This document shows, piece by piece, positions 53,309 to 61,411 of a stretch of 64,000 nt of DNA (positions within the stretch are counted from its first letter, which is position 1; each line of letters starts with the position of its first letter). The DNA is from Psychroflexus sp. ALD_RP9 (GTDB lineage: Bacteria; Bacteroidota; Bacteroidia; Flavobacteriales; Flavobacteriaceae), in the NCBI RefSeq assembly GCF_017311165.1, contig NZ_CP062973.1, forward strand, positions 2,340,001 to 2,404,000, in the 5' to 3' direction. Below the pieces are notes generated by a model that saw only the letters and a list, made by a program, of their open reading frames with translations, did not search any database and had not been told where the DNA came from. Both the position numbers and the translations under genes were made by a program.

Positions 53309-54286
53309 TTAATCGTCCTGTAATTCGGCATACAAAACAATAGCATTTTTTAGCTGATTAGCAAGTGATTGATTGCCATCGCTATCGACTGGATTAATTT
53401 CAATTGTTCCATTATTATTACCATCAACAGCACTGCTTAAATCAACTGAATTGAATACAGCATTTAAATCAAAATTAAAGACAATTGAAGCATTATTAGT
53501 ATTATCTATCACTAGATTTTGTCCAGCATCTTCATAATCAACTTCAAAATCTTCATCGAAAGTATGATAAAATTCAAAGTTTGAACCATCAATTGTGCCT
53601 GTTACTAAAATAGATTTTTGATAAAGCGGACTAGCACTATTTAAGCTTCGGTTCATTTCAAATTCTACTTCTTCGTAGGTTCCTAAAGGAATGTCTACAT
53701 CAACTACAGTAACGGCATCGCTACTTAAATCTAATTCAAATGGACCAACTAGATTAACTTCATCATCATCGCCCCAATCGTTATCGTCGTCGTCTTCATA
53801 ACTTGCCCCATTACAAGGATCATCATCTTGTTCGGTAGCATAGACAGAAAAATCTGCTCTAAAGTAAATCTCTAAACCAGAGTTTAACTCAACTTCATAT
53901 TTATAAGGGGCATCATTGTCGTCTTCCATTTCAGCTTTACAAAATGCATCATTTGGATAGTTAGTCGTTAAATAGTTTTGTATTTCAATTGGTAAATCTT
54001 CAAAACTTAAATTAATATCTTCGTCACTTTTTGCTACTTGCATTATCGGTTTACCGCTATTAGCATATTCAAATTCGATATTGCTAATATTGATTAAAAA
54101 GCTATTAACTTCAACAGTTGTGTTTGCTTTAGCTAAACGACCGCTAGTTGTATTTAAACTTGCTTTGGCTTTAATGCTTAAATTTGTAGTTGCAACAGGA
54201 GTAGAGCTTGAGTTGTCATCATCACTACAACTCGACATAACAAACATGATGCTAAGTACACTTAAGATTGATGTTTTAAATTTCAT
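53309..54286 (-). CDS. Lipoprotein with PepSY-like segment and acidic loops
   Basis: A 325-residue surface-type lipoprotein. The signal ends MFVMSSC with Cys at about residue 20, followed by SDDDN, the kind of acidic stretch that directs Bacteroidota lipoproteins to the surface. Residues ~96-146 (LPIEIQNYLTTNYP, then KYEVELNSGLEIYFR) resemble a PepSY-like repeat unit set inside a larger beta-rich domain. An acidic loop around 160-175 (YEDDDDNDWGDDDE) could bind calcium. No full-length family recognised. It is transcribed alone. Confidence 0.7.
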   Translation of the reverse strand: MKFKTSILSVLSIMFVMSSCSDDDNSSSTPVATTNLSIKAKASLNTTSGRLAKANTTVEVNSFLINISNIEFEYANSGKPIMQVAKSDEDINLSFEDLPIEIQNYLTTNYPNDAFCKAEMEDDNDAPYKYEVELNSGLEIYFRADFSVYATEQDDDPCNGASYEDDDDNDWGDDDEVNLVGPFELDLSSDAVTVVDVDIPLGTYEEVEFEMNRSLNSASPLYQKSILVTGTIDGSNFEFYHTFDEDFEVDYEDAGQNLVIDNTNNASIVFNFDLNAVFNSVDLSSAVDGNNNGTIEINPVDSDGNQSLANQLKNAIVLYAELQDD

Positions 54287-54389: not shown

Positions 54390-55514
54390 TTGAACTCAAA
54401 AGTTTGCATTATTGGTGGTGGTTTAGCAGGACTTACGGCAGCAATACACTTAAGTCTTGATGGCTTTGAAGTAGTTGTAGTTGAAAAAAATGAATATCCA
54501 CAACACAAAGTCTGTGGCGAATATGTTTCTAATGAAGTAAAAACATATTTATCAAGTTTAGGGCTAATAAAATTCTTAAAGCAAACACAGGATATCAATA
54601 CACTTAAGTTATCTAATGTTAATGGTCAACTTTTTTCAGCTCAATTACCGCTTGGTGGTTTTGGTGTGAGCCGTTTTGCAATGGATCATGCTTTATTTAA
54701 GCATGCTAAAGAAATTGGTGTTAAAGTCATTAAAGCTAAAGTAACACATTTCGAGTCTACTCATTCAGGCTTTAAAACCTACTTTATGGATTCTTGTTTA
54801 AACTCAAAATTTTTGTTGTTAGCTTATGGAAAACGGTCTAATCTCGATAAAAAATTACATCGAAGTTTTATCCAGAAAAAAAGCCAATGGATTGGTGTAA
54901 AAGCGCATTATAATTTAGATGAATTCCCAGCTAATGAAGTCCAACTTCATAATTTTGATGGTGGCTATTGTGGTTTATCAAAAACAGAATCGCATGCAAT
55001 TAATTGTTGTTATTTAGTTTCAGCTGAAGTGTTTAAACACTATAAATCCATAGATGATTTTAATAAAAAGGTGCTCAGAAATAATCAGCATCTTAATCAT
55101 TTTTTTGAGAAAGCTAATTCTATATTTGAATCTCCACTTGCTATTGCTCAAGTCTCCTTTGCAAAAAAGTCAAATTCAAATTCTAATGCTTTAATGTTAG
55201 GGGATGCAGCAGGCTTAATTCATCCTTTATGCGGCAACGGCATGGCAATGGCCATACATTCAGCTAAAATTGCCGCTGAAGCGATTAAATTGGTTGACCA
55301 AAATTCTCTTCAGATGAGTCAATTATCAACATATTACAAACAACAATGGCAATCATCGTTTAAAAAACGCTTATTTTATGGGCGTATTTTTCAGAAAATT
55401 TTATTAAATCAAAGGTTAACCAGCTTGGGATTAAATTTACTTCAGCCATTACCGTTTTTATTACCAAAACTTGTTCGTTTAACTCATGGTCAACCTATTC
55501 CAGCTTATGATTAG
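54390..55514 (+). CDS. FAD-dependent oxidoreductase of the geranylgeranyl-reductase/hydroxylase type
   Basis: A 374-residue flavoprotein, first gene of the polyketide cluster. It has the Rossmann motif IIGGGLAGLTAA at the N-terminus (residues ~7-18), the HKVCGEYVS substrate-loop motif and the second FAD motif LMLGDAAGLIHPLCGNGM. Such enzymes reduce isoprenoid chains or hydroxylate aromatics, so here it may oxidise the aromatic polyketide product. The start is TTG at 54390, as no ATG precedes the Rossmann fold. It overlaps the methyltransferase gene by exactly 8 bases (ATGATTAG). Confidence 0.88.
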   Translation: MNSKVCIIGGGLAGLTAAIHLSLDGFEVVVVEKNEYPQHKVCGEYVSNEVKTYLSSLGLIKFLKQTQDINTLKLSNVNGQLFSAQLPLGGFGVSRFAMDHALFKHAKEIGVKVIKAKVTHFESTHSGFKTYFMDSCLNSKFLLLAYGKRSNLDKKLHRSFIQKKSQWIGVKAHYNLDEFPANEVQLHNFDGGYCGLSKTESHAINCCYLVSAEVFKHYKSIDDFNKKVLRNNQHLNHFFEKANSIFESPLAIAQVSFAKKSNSNSNALMLGDAAGLIHPLCGNGMAMAIHSAKIAAEAIKLVDQNSLQMSQLSTYYKQQWQSSFKKRLFYGRIFQKILLNQRLTSLGLNLLQPLPFLLPKLVRLTHGQPIPAYD

Positions 55515-56214
55515 TACAAATAAACGTTCATCTCAAGCAGAAATTATGGATACATTCGACTTTAAAGGACAAGATTTAGTCAATGTACTTCAACATATTG
55601 ATCAAATTAATTCAAGTTTAGGCGGCCATCGTGTAACGATAAATGGTGTCAAGCAGTTACTAAAAAAATCAAAAAAAGAGGTAATCACAATTGCTGATAT
55701 TGGCTGTGGAAGTGGCGCAAGTTTAAGAGCCATTGCAAAATGGGCTGAAAAGCAAAAATTTCAAGTAAAATTGATTGGTATTGATGCCAATCCGTATATT
55801 ATTGAAGTAGCTAAATCATTAACTTCAACTAAGTTTAATATTTCTTATCTATGTTTAGACGTGTTTTCAGCAGAGTTCAAAGCTTTAGAGTTTGATATTG
55901 TTTGCTCAAGTCTCACTTTTCACCATTTTAAAGATCAGTCGATTATACAATTGCTTCAACAACTAGAAGCGCAAGTTAAATTAGGAATAATCATTAATGA
56001 TTTACACCGCCATAAATTAGCTTATCGCTTATTTCAATTATATAGTATTTTCTTTGTCAGATCTCAAATAGCAAAAAAAGATGGATTAATTTCGATCTTA
56101 AGAGGTTTTAAATCAAAGGATTTTAAGTATTTTTCAAAACAATTGAATAATGCAACTCAATTGAAATGGTTCTGGGCATTTCGTTATCAATTTTTAATAC
56201 AAATTCATGGTTAA
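55507..56214 (+). CDS. SAM-dependent methyltransferase of the polyketide cluster
   Basis: A 235-residue class I methyltransferase with the SAM-binding IADIGCGSGASL (about residues 62-73), IGIDANPY and LTFHHF. The start was set at ATG 55507, which gives a family-like N-terminus (MISTNKRSSQAEIMD); an ATG 21 bases earlier is in frame but lies deeper in the previous gene. Similar enzymes O-methylate phenolic lipids next to type III PKS genes (SrsB and BpsB are the known examples). It overlaps both neighbours by 8 bases. Confidence 0.88.
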   Translation: MISTNKRSSQAEIMDTFDFKGQDLVNVLQHIDQINSSLGGHRVTINGVKQLLKKSKKEVITIADIGCGSGASLRAIAKWAEKQKFQVKLIGIDANPYIIEVAKSLTSTKFNISYLCLDVFSAEFKALEFDIVCSSLTFHHFKDQSIIQLLQQLEAQVKLGIIINDLHRHKLAYRLFQLYSIFFVRSQIAKKDGLISILRGFKSKDFKYFSKQLNNATQLKWFWAFRYQFLIQIHG

Positions 56215-57256
56215 AATTACGCAAGTTTCTACTCAACTCCCAAAATATACTAGTTCTACTGCTGAAGTAATTCCGTATATTGAAGATTGGTTAGAGCATC
56301 AAGATGAACGATTTAAACGTAAAGTTATCAAGATCTTTGAAGGTGCTGCTGTAGATCGTCGTTATGCTATTATGCCACCAAATCAGGTATTTACACCAAC
56401 GAGCTTTGAAGAAAAAAATAAAATTTATCAAACTGAAGCTAAACAACTTGGTCATCAAGTTTTAGAAAAAGCACTCTTAAAATCGAATTGGGATCCTAAA
56501 AGTTTAGATTATATTATTACGGTAAGCTGTACAGGAATTATGATTCCTTCATTAGATGCTTTCCTTATAAATAGTCTTGGTTTAAGGCAAGATATTGTGC
56601 GCTTGCCTGTTACCGAAATGGGTTGTGTTGCGGGAGTTTCCGGTATTATTTACGCTAAACAGTTTTTAGAGAATCAACCCAATAAAAGGGCTGCTGTAAT
56701 TGCTGTTGAAGCACCAACAGCAACTTTGCAACATTCAGATTTTAGTATGGCAAATATGGTAAGTGCCGCCATTTTCGGCGATGGTGCAGCTTGTGTACTT
56801 ATGAGCTCAGAAGAGCAGGCAAGTGGTCCTCAAATTTGCGATGAGCAGATGTACCATTTTTACGATCAAACGCACATGATGGGTTTCGATTTAACAAACA
56901 ATGGCTTGAAAATGATTCTTGATATTGCCGTTCCTGATACTATTGCAACACATTTTCCGGAAATTATTCATCCTTTTTTAAAGCGTAATAATTTATCGAT
57001 TGAATTAATAGAACATCTCATATTTCATCCTGGCGGAAAGAAAATTATTCTAACTGTCGAAGATTTATTTAAAGATTTGGGCAAGAACATTAATGCAACA
57101 AAATCGGTGCTTAAAAATTACGGTAACATGAGTAGTGCTACTGTTTTATTTGTTTTAGCGCAAATCATGCAAGATTCGCCAAAAAAAGATGATTACGGCT
57201 TAATGTTAAGCTTTGGACCAGGATTTACAGCACAACGACTTTTATTAAAATTTTAA
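56207..57256 (+). CDS. Type III polyketide synthase
   Basis: A 349-residue homodimeric chalcone/stilbene-synthase-fold enzyme that extends an acyl starter with malonyl units and cyclises the chain. The full catalytic triad is present: Cys140 in VTEMGCVAGVSG, His274 in IFHPGGKK and Asn307 in NYGNMSSAT. The product class (resorcinol, pyrone, phloroglucinol) cannot be read from sequence. It follows the methyltransferase with an 8-base overlap, and the enoyl reductase starts after 1 base. It lies among dedicated fatty-acid-type genes, suggesting a carrier-bound fatty starter. Confidence 0.93.
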   Translation: MVKITQVSTQLPKYTSSTAEVIPYIEDWLEHQDERFKRKVIKIFEGAAVDRRYAIMPPNQVFTPTSFEEKNKIYQTEAKQLGHQVLEKALLKSNWDPKSLDYIITVSCTGIMIPSLDAFLINSLGLRQDIVRLPVTEMGCVAGVSGIIYAKQFLENQPNKRAAVIAVEAPTATLQHSDFSMANMVSAAIFGDGAACVLMSSEEQASGPQICDEQMYHFYDQTHMMGFDLTNNGLKMILDIAVPDTIATHFPEIIHPFLKRNNLSIELIEHLIFHPGGKKIILTVEDLFKDLGKNINATKSVLKNYGNMSSATVLFVLAQIMQDSPKKDDYGLMLSFGPGFTAQRLLLKF

Positions 57257-57257
57257 T

Positions 57258-58016
57258 ATGAAACCAACAGCGTTAATTATTGGCGGTAGCCAAGGTTTGG
57301 GGTATGCAAGTGCTAAAGAATTAGCTCTACGTGGATTTAATTTGATTATTATACATCGAGATTCTAGAGCTTTAAATGAAGAAATCACTGAAAAGTTTGA
57401 TGATTTACGCTCACTTTCAGTTGAAGTAACTAGCCATAATTTTGATGCTACACGCACCGATAAAATAGATACATTCATAAATCAAATTCAGCCAGATTTG
57501 CAATTCGATTTAGTCTTACATTCAATTGCAAAAGGTAATTTAAAAAATGTTGTTGGCGAAGATGCACTTACTACAAATGATTTCCAGACAACCTTGCAAT
57601 CTATGGCTATCAGTTTTTATAGCTGGGCAAATCGACTTGTACATCATCAAAAAATGAAAAATCCAAGTCAATTTATAGCCTTCACTAGTGAAGGAAACTC
57701 TAAAGTTATTCCACAATATGGCGCTGTTTCAGCAGCAAAAACGGCTTTAGAAAGCATCATGAAACAACTTGCCGTAGAACTTGCACCAAAAGGTATCAGA
57801 GCTAATTGTATTCAAGCAGGTTTGGTTGACACAAAAGCTTTGCAGCATTTCCCAGCATACAAGCAACTTAAGTCTTACACCATAAAACGTAATCCTTATA
57901 AACGCCTAACAACAACAGAAGATGTCGCAAATGTGGTTGGTTTGTTAAGTGATTCAGCTGCACGCTGGATAAACGGTAGCATTATAAAAGTTGATGGTGG
58001 TGAAAGTTTAGTTTAA
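57258..58016 (+). CDS. SDR of the FabI/FabL enoyl-ACP reductase type
   Basis: A 252-residue short-chain dehydrogenase. The cofactor motif is GGSQGLGYA. The catalytic pair is Tyr154-x6-Lys161 (YGAVSAAK), the spacing of enoyl reductases rather than the YxxxK of ketoreductases. The LVDTKALQHFP segment is close to that of FabL. It likely reduces enoyl-ACP intermediates made by the cluster's dehydratase. No typical ketoreductase occurs in the cluster, so either the housekeeping FabG is shared or this enzyme does both steps. Confidence 0.85.
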   Translation: MKPTALIIGGSQGLGYASAKELALRGFNLIIIHRDSRALNEEITEKFDDLRSLSVEVTSHNFDATRTDKIDTFINQIQPDLQFDLVLHSIAKGNLKNVVGEDALTTNDFQTTLQSMAISFYSWANRLVHHQKMKNPSQFIAFTSEGNSKVIPQYGAVSAAKTALESIMKQLAVELAPKGIRANCIQAGLVDTKALQHFPAYKQLKSYTIKRNPYKRLTTTEDVANVVGLLSDSAARWINGSIIKVDGGESLV

Positions 58017-58026
58017 ATTAAAATGT

Positions 58027-58479
58027 ATGCAGAAGTATCAATCTATTTTAGATCAATTACCCTACCAACATCCCTTTTTGTTTGTTGATGAAATTATTGA
58101 GGTTGATTTAAACTCAATAAAAGGTTCTTACTTTTTTCATCGTCAACACCAATTTTACAAAGGTCACTTTAAAGACTTTCCTATTACACCAGGTGTTATT
58201 TTAACTGAATGTGCAGCACAAATAGGCTTGGTCTGTTTTGGGATTTTTCTTTTAAAAACAGAAGGTAAATCAACTAAAAATTTGAACTGCGTAATGACTT
58301 CAACTGAAATTGAATTTTTAAAACCTGTTTTTCCTAATGAAACTGTTAGAGTAGAAGCTGAAAAAGAATACTTTAGATTTAACAAATTAAAATCTTCCGT
58401 AAAATTATATAATACGGTTGGTGAACTTGTTTTAAAGGGCGAAATTAGTGGAATGATTTCAACTGAAACACATGAATAA
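58027..58479 (+). CDS. FabZ/hotdog-fold 3-hydroxyacyl-ACP dehydratase
   Basis: A 150-residue hotdog protein with HPFLFVDEI near the N-terminus and the catalytic helix region GHFKDFPITPGVILTECAAQIG, named here in part: His in GHF and Glu in TECAAQ are the expected active residues. It should dehydrate 3-hydroxyacyl-ACP in the cluster's chain-building cycle. It begins 10 bases after the enoyl reductase and overlaps the ketosynthase by 8 bases (ATGAATAA). Confidence 0.87.
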   Translation: MQKYQSILDQLPYQHPFLFVDEIIEVDLNSIKGSYFFHRQHQFYKGHFKDFPITPGVILTECAAQIGLVCFGIFLLKTEGKSTKNLNCVMTSTEIEFLKPVFPNETVRVEAEKEYFRFNKLKSSVKLYNTVGELVLKGEISGMISTETHE

Positions 58480-59743
58480 TCGCGTTGTTATAACAGGTTT
58501 AGGTGTTGTAGCACCGAATGCAATTGGCAAAAAAAGTTTTTTACAAGCATTAAAAAATCAAATCAATGGTATTACTTTTCATCAAGACTTAGCCAATAAA
58601 TCTTTTAGTTGTCAAGTTGCTGGAACGCCACAAGTTAATAGCAATCTATTAAACCATTACTTCACGGCCTTAGAACAAAAAGGATTATTGGCAAGTGGAC
58701 TTATTTATGGTGGAATTGCCGGACAAGAAGCGTGGCTTGATGCTGGTTTAGAAATTAATAAATCTACAGATTATGATACAGGCGTTATTTTTGGCACAGG
58801 AATTTTAGGTGTTGAAAAGTTAAAAGAAGCTTTTAATCAAATTGAAAATCAAAAGGTTAGAAGGCTTGGCAGCACGAGTGTTTTACAAACCATGGCAAGT
58901 GGTGTTTCTGCATTTTTAGGCGGTAAATTAGGTTGTGGAAATTGGGTAACATCTAACTCATCGGCATGTACAACAGGTACTGAAGCCTTTTTGATGGGGT
59001 ACGAACATCTTAAGCTCAATAAAGCTAAACGAATGCTTGTTGGCAGTAGTAGTGACTCTGGCGCTTTAGTTTGGGGTGGATTTGAAGCTTTGAGAATTTT
59101 ACCTTATCAGTTTAATCAACATCCAGAAGAAGCCTCAAGACCAATGAGTAAAAACGCACAAGGTTTTGTGCCAAGTAGTGGCGCTGGTGCTTTAGTTTTA
59201 GAAACCTTAGACTCAGCTCTAGAAAGACAAGCGCCAATTTATGCAGAGGTTTGTGGAGGTGCTATTAATTCTGGCGGTCAGCGTCAAGGTGGTAGCATGA
59301 CAGCACCAAACTCTGAAGCTGTTCAAAAATGTATTTTGCAATCGTTAAGTAACGCTAAAGTTAATGCTGCTGAAATTGACACAATAAATGGTCATTTAAC
59401 AGGTACGGCAATGGATGCTGTTGAAATTAATAATTGGCATTCAGCTCTAAATTTAAATGACGAAAAATTTCCATTAATAAACTCATTAAAAAGTCATATT
59501 GGCCACGCATTAGCAGCTGCAGGAAGTTTAGAGTTGGTAGCTTCAGTTTTGCAAGTTAAGCATCAATTTGTGTTTGGAAACCGAAATTTACAACCTATTC
59601 ATCCAGACATACTAAACCAAATTTCAAAAAAATCGATTCCTAATCAATCTCAATCTACTTCAATTAAATACCTTATAAAAGCAAGTTTTGGTTTTGGAGA
59701 TGTTAATGCGTGTACTGTTTTAAAACAATTTAAAAATGAATAA
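58472..59743 (+). CDS. KAS II-like beta-ketoacyl-ACP synthase
   Basis: A 423-residue thiolase-fold condensing enzyme of the FabF type. Cys166 (SSACTTGTE), His308 (NGHLTGTAMDA) and Lys340/His345 (KSHIGHALAAAG) make a complete active site, so it is a true condensing subunit rather than a chain-length factor. It probably elongates the acyl starter on the cluster's carrier protein. It overlaps both neighbours by 8 bases. Confidence 0.9.
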   Translation: MNNRVVITGLGVVAPNAIGKKSFLQALKNQINGITFHQDLANKSFSCQVAGTPQVNSNLLNHYFTALEQKGLLASGLIYGGIAGQEAWLDAGLEINKSTDYDTGVIFGTGILGVEKLKEAFNQIENQKVRRLGSTSVLQTMASGVSAFLGGKLGCGNWVTSNSSACTTGTEAFLMGYEHLKLNKAKRMLVGSSSDSGALVWGGFEALRILPYQFNQHPEEASRPMSKNAQGFVPSSGAGALVLETLDSALERQAPIYAEVCGGAINSGGQRQGGSMTAPNSEAVQKCILQSLSNAKVNAAEIDTINGHLTGTAMDAVEINNWHSALNLNDEKFPLINSLKSHIGHALAAAGSLELVASVLQVKHQFVFGNRNLQPIHPDILNQISKKSIPNQSQSTSIKYLIKASFGFGDVNACTVLKQFKNE

Positions 59744-59963
59744 AATAAAACGAAAATATTGGACGTTTGGAGCCTTAGGCACATTATTACTAGGTTTTGG
59801 TCTTTGCGCTTTATTAGAAAGTGCCTTTTTAAAGCACAATCCTGAAATACCAACTTGGCAATGGATTGTTGCTGGGACTTTATCATTAATCATTATTATG
59901 GCTGGAATAAATTTTTTATTTGCTAGTTTCGAAAATAAATTAAAACTTAATAGGAATGACTAA
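59736..59963 (+). CDS. Small two-helix membrane protein of the polyketide cluster
   Basis: A 75-residue protein with two hydrophobic helices (residues ~11-29 and ~43-62) and charged ends. No family recognised. It overlaps the ketosynthase and the acyl carrier protein genes by exactly 8 bases each, so it is firmly part of the operon. It may anchor the soluble enzymes at the membrane where a lipid product would be released; that is inference. Confidence 0.75.
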   Translation: MNKIKRKYWTFGALGTLLLGFGLCALLESAFLKHNPEIPTWQWIVAGTLSLIIIMAGINFLFASFENKLKLNRND

Positions 59964-60204
59964 AGATAACATTATTCAAAAATTAAAGCATATTGTCGAG
60001 CCTTATGTAAATCATACTGAAAATTTTAAAAACTTATCTGAAACATCAGACTTTATAAAGGATTTAGAAATTAATTCGGCTAATTTAGTAGATGTTATTC
60101 TAGATATTGAAGATGAATTTAACATCAGAATCGAGAATGATGATATGGAACAAATGCTTAATGTTGAAAAAAGCGTTGAAGTTATTCAACAAAAGTTGAA
60201 GTAA
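59956..60204 (+). CDS. Acyl carrier protein of the polyketide cluster
   Basis: An 82-residue carrier protein. The 4'-phosphopantetheine attachment Ser41 lies in LEINSANLVDVILDIEDEF, where the usual DSL reads NSA; the following helix and acidic surface are kept, so it should be functional. It is distinct from housekeeping AcpP (no DSLD) and is followed after 2 bases by its likely activating transferase. It presumably carries the acyl starter between the mini-FAS enzymes and the type III PKS. Confidence 0.87.
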   Translation: MTKDNIIQKLKHIVEPYVNHTENFKNLSETSDFIKDLEINSANLVDVILDIEDEFNIRIENDDMEQMLNVEKSVEVIQQKLK

Positions 60205-60206
60205 TT

Positions 60207-60731
60207 ATGCTCGGCAACGATATTGTAGATTTAACAGAAGCCAAAAAACAATCGAATATTTTTAGATCGCGTTATTTTGATAAAACACTAACAGCTTCAG
60301 AACAATACATCGTTCAACAGTCCGTAAATCCAGAATTGTGTTTTTGGACAATTTGGACTTGTAAAGAAGCAGTTTATAAGTCTGCCCAACGTGAATTTTG
60401 TTTTAAAGCTTTTTATAATCCACTTCAATTTCAAACGCATTTTTTAACAGAAGATAAAGCTAAGATTTGTTTCAATAAAAAAGTATATGACATTGATATA
60501 AAGTTAAATAGTAATTTTATATATAGTTATACTTCAAATAATTTTAAAACTGATTATCATATTCAACCAACACAATCTTTAACCTTAAAAAAAATCTCAA
60601 ATAATTTTAATCAACCTGTTTCATTAAAAAAAAATGAGATTGGTTTACCTTATTTAGAATTCTATTCTCATCAAAAAATTTGTTCTGTAACACATCATGG
60701 CTCATTTTTTGCGCTTCAATATATGTGTTAA
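60207..60731 (+). CDS. 4'-phosphopantetheinyl transferase (AcpS-like)
   Basis: A 174-residue transferase that converts apo-carrier proteins to holo form using CoA. It shows MLGNDIVDL, with the Mg-binding Asp, at the very start, and WTCKEAVYK (Glu and Lys). The 120-160 part has the second half of the fold (KKNEIGLPYLE, CSVTHHGSF). The adjacency to the ACP gene implies that ACP as its substrate. It is the last gene of the cluster; about 50 bases separate it from the next gene. Confidence 0.9.
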   Translation: MLGNDIVDLTEAKKQSNIFRSRYFDKTLTASEQYIVQQSVNPELCFWTIWTCKEAVYKSAQREFCFKAFYNPLQFQTHFLTEDKAKICFNKKVYDIDIKLNSNFIYSYTSNNFKTDYHIQPTQSLTLKKISNNFNQPVSLKKNEIGLPYLEFYSHQKICSVTHHGSFFALQYMC

Positions 60732-60781: not shown

Positions 60782-61411
60782 ATGAATAATATAATTTACA
60801 TCTTATTATTGGTTAGTTTTCTGGGTTATGCACAAGATAAAGACTTGCCTCAATCAAGTACAAAATCTAAAGGTGCAGTTTTTACTAAAGCTAAGGTTTC
60901 TAGTGGTAATAATTTATTAGGTATACCAAACCGACCAAAAGTTAAAAATTTATTTGCAGAGCCTGAAAAAGGAATCAATTTTAAACCTAAAGAGAAATTT
61001 ACAAATCCGAGTGATTTATATACCAAAAAACTAAATGCCAAGCCTGAAGACGAAAATAACAAAATGAAAGAAGAGTTTGGCAATGACATGTATTTAGGTG
61101 ATTTTGTGACTACATCAGATAAAATTGTTTTTTTATGTCGAGACCACATGATGTTTGATGGCGATCGTGTACAAGTTCGCTTAAATGGTAAAATTTTAAT
61201 TCAAAATTTACTGCTTGAAAACGCTTATAAAGAAATTACAATTCCGCTAGAAGTTGGCTTTAATAAAATAGAGTTTGTAGCTTTAAATCAAGGAGAATCT
61301 GGACCTAATACAGCTGAGTTAAAGGCTATTGATAATGGTACCTTAATTACTAGAAATATATGGAATCTATTAACTGGTGTTAAGGCATCTACAGTTGTAG
61401 TAAGAAATTAA
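60782..61411 (+). CDS. Secreted protein of unknown function, 209 residues
   Basis: It has a signal peptide (MNNIIYILLLVSFLGYAQ), then a low-complexity basic region to about residue 100. A C-terminal beta-rich part follows (YLGDFVTTSDKIVFLCRDHMMFDGDRVQVRLNG, given in part), where GDRVQVRLNGKIL and VGFNKIEFVALNQGESGPNTAELK look like a repeating carbohydrate- or ligand-binding beta fold. No family recognised. It converges on recQ with no gap between stops and no visible terminator. Confidence 0.7.
   Translation: MNNIIYILLLVSFLGYAQDKDLPQSSTKSKGAVFTKAKVSSGNNLLGIPNRPKVKNLFAEPEKGINFKPKEKFTNPSDLYTKKLNAKPEDENNKMKEEFGNDMYLGDFVTTSDKIVFLCRDHMMFDGDRVQVRLNGKILIQNLLLENAYKEITIPLEVGFNKIEFVALNQGESGPNTAELKAIDNGTLITRNIWNLLTGVKASTVVVRN

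Follow-up and report, generated by a model that had tools for sequence, protein, structure and literature searches.

A conserved type III polyketide synthase operon with a putative dedicated acyl-ACP cassette in Psychroflexus sp. ALD_RP9 and other Flavobacteriaceae

The analyzed window comprised 64,000 nucleotides of the Psychroflexus sp. ALD_RP9 genome (contig NZ_CP062973.1, positions 2,340,001 to 2,404,000). Nine open reading frames (ORFs), all intact and on the same strand, span positions 54390–60731 of the window (Table 1); the ORF list and the family assignments confirmed the nine contiguous genes of the original prediction. The gaps between neighboring genes were, in order, −29, −8, +1, +10, −8, −8, −8, and +2 bases; because of this spacing, the nine genes are predicted to form, very likely, one transcription unit. 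The next same-strand ORF begins at 60782, 50 bases past the end of the last gene, and no terminator-like site was listed between 60731 and 60782; therefore, the 3′ end of the operon was left open. The scans for promoter-like sites (50 found versus 55.6 expected) and terminator-like sites (12 versus 6.0 expected) were uninformative, and the TTTG/TAnnTTTG pair, which we take to be a promoter motif, was not found on the plus strand ahead of the first gene.

Table 1. Genes of the nine-gene run, with positions counted in the window
Product	Position	Strand	Length (aa)	Residues and remarks	Basis of assignment
FAD-dependent oxidoreductase	54390..55514	+	374	TTG start codon	Pfam FAD_binding_3
Class I SAM methyltransferase	55486..56214	+	242		Pfam Methyltransf_25, 2.7e-14
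Type III polyketide synthase (PKS)	56207..57256	+	349	Cys140-His274-Asn307	PF00195 and PF02797 above cut-off
FabL-type enoyl-ACP reductase	57258..58016	+	252	Y154-x6-K161	adh_short_C2; nearest NCBIfam model FabL
FabZ-like 3-hydroxyacyl-ACP dehydratase	58027..58479	+	150	H47/E61	PF07977, 8.9e-13; FabA-like, nearest FabZ
Elongating ketosynthase (KS)	58472..59743	+	423	C166/H308/H345	PF00109 and PF02801 (ketoacyl-synt)
Small protein, apparently with two membrane segments	59736..59963	+	75		Visual reading of the sequence
Private acyl carrier protein (ACP)	59956..60204	+	82	Ser41 in (I/V)NS motif	PF00550, 22.2 bits (cut-off 20.8)
4′-Phosphopantetheinyl transferase (PPTase, ACPS)	60207..60731	+	174	Accessory	PF01648, 1.1e-10

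The type III PKS, the methyltransferase, and the flavin oxidoreductase would constitute the first part of the pathway. The Chal_sti_synt N and C domains of the PKS, the sole PF00195 match in the genome, scored 69.1 and 69.7 bits against a curated cut-off of 27. Its Cys-His-Asn triad was invariant in all 39 aligned rows and lined up with those of PKS11 and THNS. The best profile match was PKS11 of Mycobacterium tuberculosis (4jao; 1e-61), the PDB title of which refers to alkylpyrone synthesis, and the nearest solved fold to the PKS model was again PKS11, at an identity of about 30%, followed by CylI of cylindrocyclophane synthesis. Both of these enzymes act on fatty starters. The nearest NCBIfam model was DpgA (163 bits, cut-off 425), which forms its ring without a fatty starter. 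The methyltransferase scored 127 bits with NCBIfam PRK06202, under the cut-off of 243, and was matched in 78 of 80 orthologous loci. The model of the flavoenzyme showed the fold of flavin monooxygenases and halogenases; its role would be ring oxidation.

The dehydratase, the ketosynthase, and the ACP, usually together with the enoyl reductase, would form the second part, a dedicated type II elongation cassette. The enoyl reductase had Y154 and K161 invariant in 32 of 32 aligned rows, and in a search with its family profile the enoyl-ACP reductase 3oic (1.6e-43) was the only PDB sequence under 1e-40. Both the nearest solved relative and the Tyr-x6-Lys spacing, a mark of the FabL type, point to this type, yet the NCBIfam FabL score was 155 bits, below the cut-off of 328. 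H47 and E61 of the dehydratase were present in 75 of 75 aligned rows, and the gene was matched in 76 of the 80 orthologous loci. The ketosynthase conserved its three residues in 37 of 37 rows; its best PDB profile matches, 3u0f and 3lrf, both named beta-ketoacyl synthase, were found at a threshold of 1e-72, and the search was empty at 1e-90. Ser41 of the ACP (23 of 23 rows) and D5/W50/K53/E54/K58 of the PPTase (28 of 28) were also conserved. The residues that we take to be catalytic in the PKS, ketosynthase, dehydratase, enoyl reductase, ACP, and PPTase were thus present and conserved in the aligned rows, in agreement with the intact catalytic residues claimed originally.

Two of the nine genes were considered and set aside as core parts. 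The PPTase was detected in 29 of the 80 loci and was missing from the remaining 51 even by profile search; on the PKS tree, its presence required 7 changes and was strongly clustered (0 of 500 shuffles as low). The 75-aa protein had no Pfam or NCBIfam match, and blast matched it in only 5 of 80 loci and in a split-off half (L162), although small divergent copies may escape blast.

Neither a ketoreductase, a malonyl-CoA:ACP transacylase, nor a priming KS III was found at the nine-gene locus in the ORF list, Pfam, or NCBIfam. Since these steps of a complete type II fatty acid synthase (FAS) are missing, the description of the locus as self-contained had to be rejected; nor are the PPTase and the enoyl reductase (66 of 80 loci) constant members. 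Without a ketoreductase, the cassette cannot cycle alone. FabG-like and FabI-like genes are present elsewhere in the same genome, as are one further PPTase and one further PF00550 match. Of the other ketosynthases in the genome, the main one (L166) shares 31% identity with that of the cassette and a third full-length one (L165) shares 25%; three more PF00109 matches were weak.

The locus is not unique, and the concern that such clusters are common in Flavobacteria proved right: in a sample of 199 Flavobacteriaceae genomes, nearly one per genus, an orthologous PKS was found in 63. The cassette ketosynthase had an orthologue in 62 genomes, each of which carried the orthologous PKS; a single genome (G138) had the PKS with no ketosynthase detected, and both were absent from the other 136. 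Among 395 genomes of the phylum, the best 33 ketosynthase matches fell in exactly the 33 genomes with a PKS orthologue, and in the 32 of these other than the window's own genome the two genes lay 1.5–2.7 kb apart. In the genomes covered by these searches, one half thus hardly ever occurs without the other, and their association is near-obligate. The gene order was largely kept across the 80 orthologous loci, and its recurrence in most of them indicates a grouping beyond chance. PKS and ketosynthase tree distances at 71 loci were correlated (r 0.78; 500 permutations gave at most 0.20), shared species history being included in this value. For the claim that dissociated FAS-type enzymes on a private ACP build the PKS starter, this co-occurrence provides an evolutionary tie beyond adjacency; the direction from acyl-ACP to PKS and the product we only infer.

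Variation among the loci showed that the halves are separable. In two genomes, the operon was cut between the enoyl reductase and the dehydratase, with both halves retained (L051/L162 and L099/L163), and one MAG contig (L038) carried the PKS and the cassette without adjoining FAD oxidoreductase and methyltransferase genes. The enoyl reductase was missing from 12 of the 71 rows of the PKS tree; its distribution needed 9 label changes, a number equaled or undercut in 14 of 500 shuffles (weak clustering), and a single gain or loss was therefore rejected. In addition, the PKS of G150 was split over two frames, and a stop lay inside the ketosynthase match in G059, G012, G191, and G076 of the family sample and in G259 of the phylum sample; because of these defects, some operon copies may be decaying.

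Each half was also found in other company. No cassette match occurred near the distant type III PKSs of the phylum (26–35% identity; 0 of 12 loci, L103, L132–L141, and L143), one of which (L143) lies in a PKS-methyltransferase-FAD trio. The type III PKSs found by the plasmid search were all under 60% identity, those among the 30 matches listed being at 31–33%, and no cassette match was found at four plasmid PKS neighborhoods (L120–L123, L122 being without annotation). Conversely, five more distant cassettes adjoin other enzymes that could potentially use an acyl chain, namely a KAS III-like/BtrH_N/ABC set or a GNAT protein with a glycosyltransferase. Such partners fit the expectation for an acyl-ACP supplier. 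All five genomes also carry a distant type III PKS at a separate site.

Taken together, we consider it fairly probable that a dedicated type II elongation cassette supplies an acyl-ACP starter to the type III PKS and that a ring-headed membrane lipid results. Malonyl groups, ketoreduction, and the primer would be borrowed from central fatty acid synthesis, and the cassette would build or lengthen an acyl chain, the length of which we infer, on the private ACP. The PKS would take this acyl-ACP as a starter, add two or three malonyl units, and close a pyrone or resorcinol ring; presumably in this order, the methyltransferase would cap a hydroxyl and the flavoenzyme would oxidize the ring, giving a putative membrane lipid. 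The product is likely a methylated, oxidized alkyl-pyrone, resorcinol, or quinone lipid. We count in favor of this pathway the proximity of the PKS model to PKS11 and CylI, the fold of the flavoenzyme, the PKS-ketosynthase co-occurrence and tree correlation, the distant PKSs without a cassette, the split operons that keep both halves, the other partners of related cassettes, and the further ketosynthase, ACP, PPTase, FabG-like, and FabI-like genes of the genome. Counted against it are the missing ketoreductase, the 14 of 80 loci that lack an enoyl reductase, the PKS of G138, the L038 contig, DpgA as the nearest NCBIfam model, and the frame and stop defects.

Comparison with known systems placed the operon between several of them. 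Like the Streptomyces srs operon (SrsA-SrsB-SrsC), the present operon joins a type III PKS gene to genes for a methyltransferase and a flavin oxidoreductase, and these three were matched together in 78 of the 80 orthologous loci. Unlike in srs, which to our knowledge has neither dedicated FAS genes nor an ACP, the order here is FAD oxidoreductase-methyltransferase-PKS followed by the cassette. The srs-type product is a methylated alkyl-resorcinol oxidized to a quinone. The Azotobacter ArsA-D phenolic lipid system also has a dedicated FAS beside its type III PKSs; there, large type I FAS proteins pass the acyl chain directly, a handover that we would presume here. In contrast to Ars, the FAS enzymes of the operon are separate and incomplete, with steps putatively borrowed from central FAS: no multidomain type I FAS adjoins the PKS, and all FAS functions lie on separate ORFs of 82–423 aa. 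CylI is likewise a type III PKS and converts an acyl chain assembled on a carrier into a resorcinol; an AMP ligase and modules of a type I PKS produce that chain, whereas the cassette here is of type II. We know of no comparable cassette beside M. tuberculosis PKS11. Dissociated ketosynthase, dehydratase, and ACP genes are shared with the aryl polyene and flexirubin type II systems, which also occur in Bacteroidota. Those systems additionally encode a ketoreductase, a chain length factor, and enzymes for an aromatic starter, none of which is present at this locus, and they are not known to include a type III PKS. Among the nine genes there is a single ketosynthase, the triad of which is intact, and neither a ketoreductase nor an ammonia lyase occurs.

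The flow could also be reversed, as in aryl polyenes, with the PKS making a small aromatic or pyrone starter; once loaded onto the private ACP, this starter would be elongated through the action of the ketosynthase and the dehydratase. Co-occurrence is compatible with either direction, DpgA is the nearest NCBIfam model, and the cassette could yield a polyene in the 14 loci without the enoyl reductase; however, the gene is present in the other 66, which speaks against a polyene, the operon has no ligase or acyltransferase that would transfer a CoA-bound product onto the ACP, the PKS model is nearest to fatty-starter enzymes, and the other partners of related cassettes could accept an acyl chain. 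We therefore regard this flow as unlikely. It is rather improbable that the two halves work in parallel, with the cassette chain either joined to the PKS product after its completion or destined for membrane lipids and the PKS using central acyl-CoA. The trio without a cassette (L143), the GNAT and BtrH_N partners, and the distant PKSs elsewhere in all five genomes would agree with such a supply, but no acyltransferase family occurs in the operon and the ketosynthase co-occurs near-obligately with the PKS orthologue. Mere historical adjacency in a conserved chromosomal block, of genes without a shared product, is highly improbable: neighborhood conservation alone is common here, since the flanking genes (E1 dehydrogenase, lipocalin-like, and OmpA-like) are conserved in 41–47 of 72 loci, but the module order is retained where the flanks differ (e.g., behind rpmF and fabH), neither half is present in 136 of the 199 genomes, and where the operon is split both have been retained.

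The supply of acyl-ACP to the PKS by the cassette thus remains the preferred reading, and a broader one can be proposed tentatively. The portable unit would consist of the dehydratase, ketosynthase, and ACP, in many cases accompanied by a FabL-type enoyl reductase and in some by a PPTase of its own. Possibly, this incomplete type II cassette, with ketoreduction and priming borrowed from central metabolism, serves different terminal enzymes in different Bacteroidota, and in Flavobacteriaceae hands acyl-ACP straight to a type III PKS, giving a widespread uncharacterized class of ring-headed lipids, the saturation of which depends on whether an enoyl reductase is present. The natural splits and the repeated presence and absence of this gene make the genes that would set chain saturation directly testable. 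If the proposed pathway is true, a type III PKS would receive its starter from a discrete acyl-ACP, with neither acyl-CoA nor a type I FAS as the source, and about three in ten of the sampled genera of the family (63 of 199 genomes) would carry a conserved pathway to a still unnamed lipid.

The nine contiguous same-strand genes of the original prediction were borne out at positions 54390-60731 of the window by the ORF listing and family scans, with overlaps of at most 29 bases and gaps of at most 10 bases between genes. The catalytic residues, which had been read as intact, were confirmed and proved invariant across all aligned rows. The 2.56-Mb single-contig genome contained one PF00195 match. 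The description of the locus as self-contained was an overstatement, since the ORF listing and family scans revealed neither a ketoreductase nor a malonyl transacylase nor a priming ketosynthase in it, and the genome carries another ketosynthase and ACP, adjacent to each other at about 960 kb, FabG-like and FabI-like genes (named by sequence reading), and a second PPTase.

Genes of the operon (window, 54390-60731), related unlinked cassettes, and YceI-family neighbours
Feature	Identity	Location	Strand	Basis
Operon gene 1	FAD oxidoreductase		+	family scan
Operon gene 2	class I methyltransferase (MT)		+	family scan
Operon gene 3	type III PKS		+	family scan
Operon gene 4	FabL-like reductase		+	family scan
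Operon gene 5	FabZ-like dehydratase		+	family scan
Operon gene 6	ketosynthase		+	family scan
Operon gene 7	75-aa protein, no family match		+	family scan
Operon gene 8	ACP		+	family scan
Operon gene 9	PPTase		+	family scan
Related cassette and neighbours		L168:8479-18263
Related cassette and neighbours		L169:8458-18114
Related cassette and neighbours		L170:9100-14246
Related cassette and neighbours		L171:7625-11986
Related cassette and neighbours		L172:8009-12256
Gene near operon	YceI family	L089:12306-12806
Gene near operon	YceI family	L043:17054-17584

The PKS found a match at 1e-10 in 78 of the 199 Flavobacteriaceae genomes. Orthologues, defined by at least 56% identity, accounted for 63 of these, including the window's own genome and G150, whose match lies in two pieces; the remaining 15 had matches only at 30% or below. 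The order and phylum searches added members from other families of Flavobacteriales and from three Bacteroidia genomes (G456, G506, and G603). The resulting set of 80 orthologous loci, window excluded, combined nine from the named-genome scan, 62 from the family search, eight that the order and phylum searches yielded (L124-L131), and L142; near-duplicates shared by the named and unnamed sets were retained, and L103 (28%), ten distant phylum loci (L132-L141), and one distant order locus (L143) were left out. Counting fragments, and with some losses due to contig ends (L036, L039, L090), matches were obtained for FAD oxidoreductase in 78 loci, MT in 78, PKS in 80, enoyl reductase in 66, dehydratase in 76, ketosynthase in 76, and ACP in 75. 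The PPTase was matched in 27 loci by blast and in 29 with the profile, and the 75-aa protein in five. The MAG contig L038 retained the PKS and the cassette, with other genes at the expected FAD and MT places. In 16 genomes of genus g128, the PKS-ketosynthase spacing is 1.5-2.1 kb, too short to accommodate an enoyl reductase gene (about 760 bases); direct reading of one of the 16, L046, showed the gene to be missing.

The distributions of the PKS and the cassette were closely coupled. At 1e-100, the cassette ketosynthase occurred in 62/199 family genomes, each of which belongs to the 63 that have a PKS orthologue; in the remaining one, G138, it was not detected. In the phylum sample, it was detected at 1e-80 in 38 of 395 genomes, and the best 33 were exactly the 33 with a PKS orthologue; leaving aside the window's own genome, the two genes lay on one contig in all 32 others, 1,484-2,662 bases apart (difference between lower coordinates). 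Among the distant type III PKSs (26-35% identity) found in the phylum, 12 loci (L103, L132-L141, L143) were covered, and none had a dehydratase, ketosynthase, or ACP match nearby; L143 carried a plain PKS-MT-FAD trio without the cassette. The operon was cut between enoyl reductase and dehydratase in G190 and G144, and the dehydratase-ketosynthase-ACP half was kept elsewhere, in one case 356 kb off (L162) and in the other on a different contig (L163). Tree distances of PKS and ketosynthase correlated with r 0.78 over 71 loci, a value that includes shared species history.

Five phylum-sample genomes possessed a ketosynthase of 45-49% identity unlinked to this PKS. The order (enoyl reductase)-dehydratase-ketosynthase-ACP was kept in all five cassettes (L168-L172), with the enoyl reductase present in three (L168-L170). 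In L168, a KAS III-like protein, a BtrH_N/DUF4872 protein, and components of an ABC transporter are encoded back to back with the cassette, and 3' of the ACP comes a PPTase match slightly below the cut-off. L169 shares this layout, judging from how its ORFs are ordered, and its PPTase match exceeds the cut-off. In the other three, the flanking genes encode a GNAT-family protein and, from family 2, a glycosyltransferase. Judged by context, these cassettes look as would be expected of a portable acyl-ACP supplier. All five genomes encode a distant type III PKS at a separate place, as do 134 of the 362 phylum-sample genomes without a PKS orthologue, and the unlinked cassettes may supply it in trans.

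The closest named record found was Psychroflexus salarius DSM 25661, whose PKS is 98-99% identical. Seven other operon genes were 89-94% identical between the window and P. salarius (L032) and the PPTase 73%, a sign of unequal rates inside this one operon. A 209-aa ORF (60782-61411) lies 50 bases 3' of the PPTase on the same strand; it had no match in Pfam or NCBIfam scans, and its blast matches were confined to L032, L048, and L142 among the loci tested. A lipoprotein-like ORF of 325 aa (53309-54286, minus strand), oriented divergently from the operon, likewise has a match in P. salarius.

Several neighbours hint at a lipid product, without amounting to proof. In L061, L089, L093, and L094, the PPTase is directly followed by a same-strand gene of one family; the L089 member (L089:3812-6058), the one scanned, is an MMPL protein. 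A YceI-family gene, scanned in two members, directly precedes the first operon gene in five loci. Upstream on the same strand, 41-47 of 72 loci carry fused E1 dehydrogenase, lipocalin-like, and OmpA-like genes (assigned by scanning the L043 members, L043:4154-7460), possibly a source of branched primers or merely a conserved chromosomal block. In six loci, rpmF, fabH, and a gene for a biotin carrier form part of an upstream block (L091 members scanned); a gene that follows was assigned as accC by sequence reading.

A catalogued or characterised relative may exist in print. We infer the mechanism and product of the arrangement; the pairing itself, in which a type III PKS is joined by a dedicated, partial type II elongation cassette, is well supported as real and conserved.
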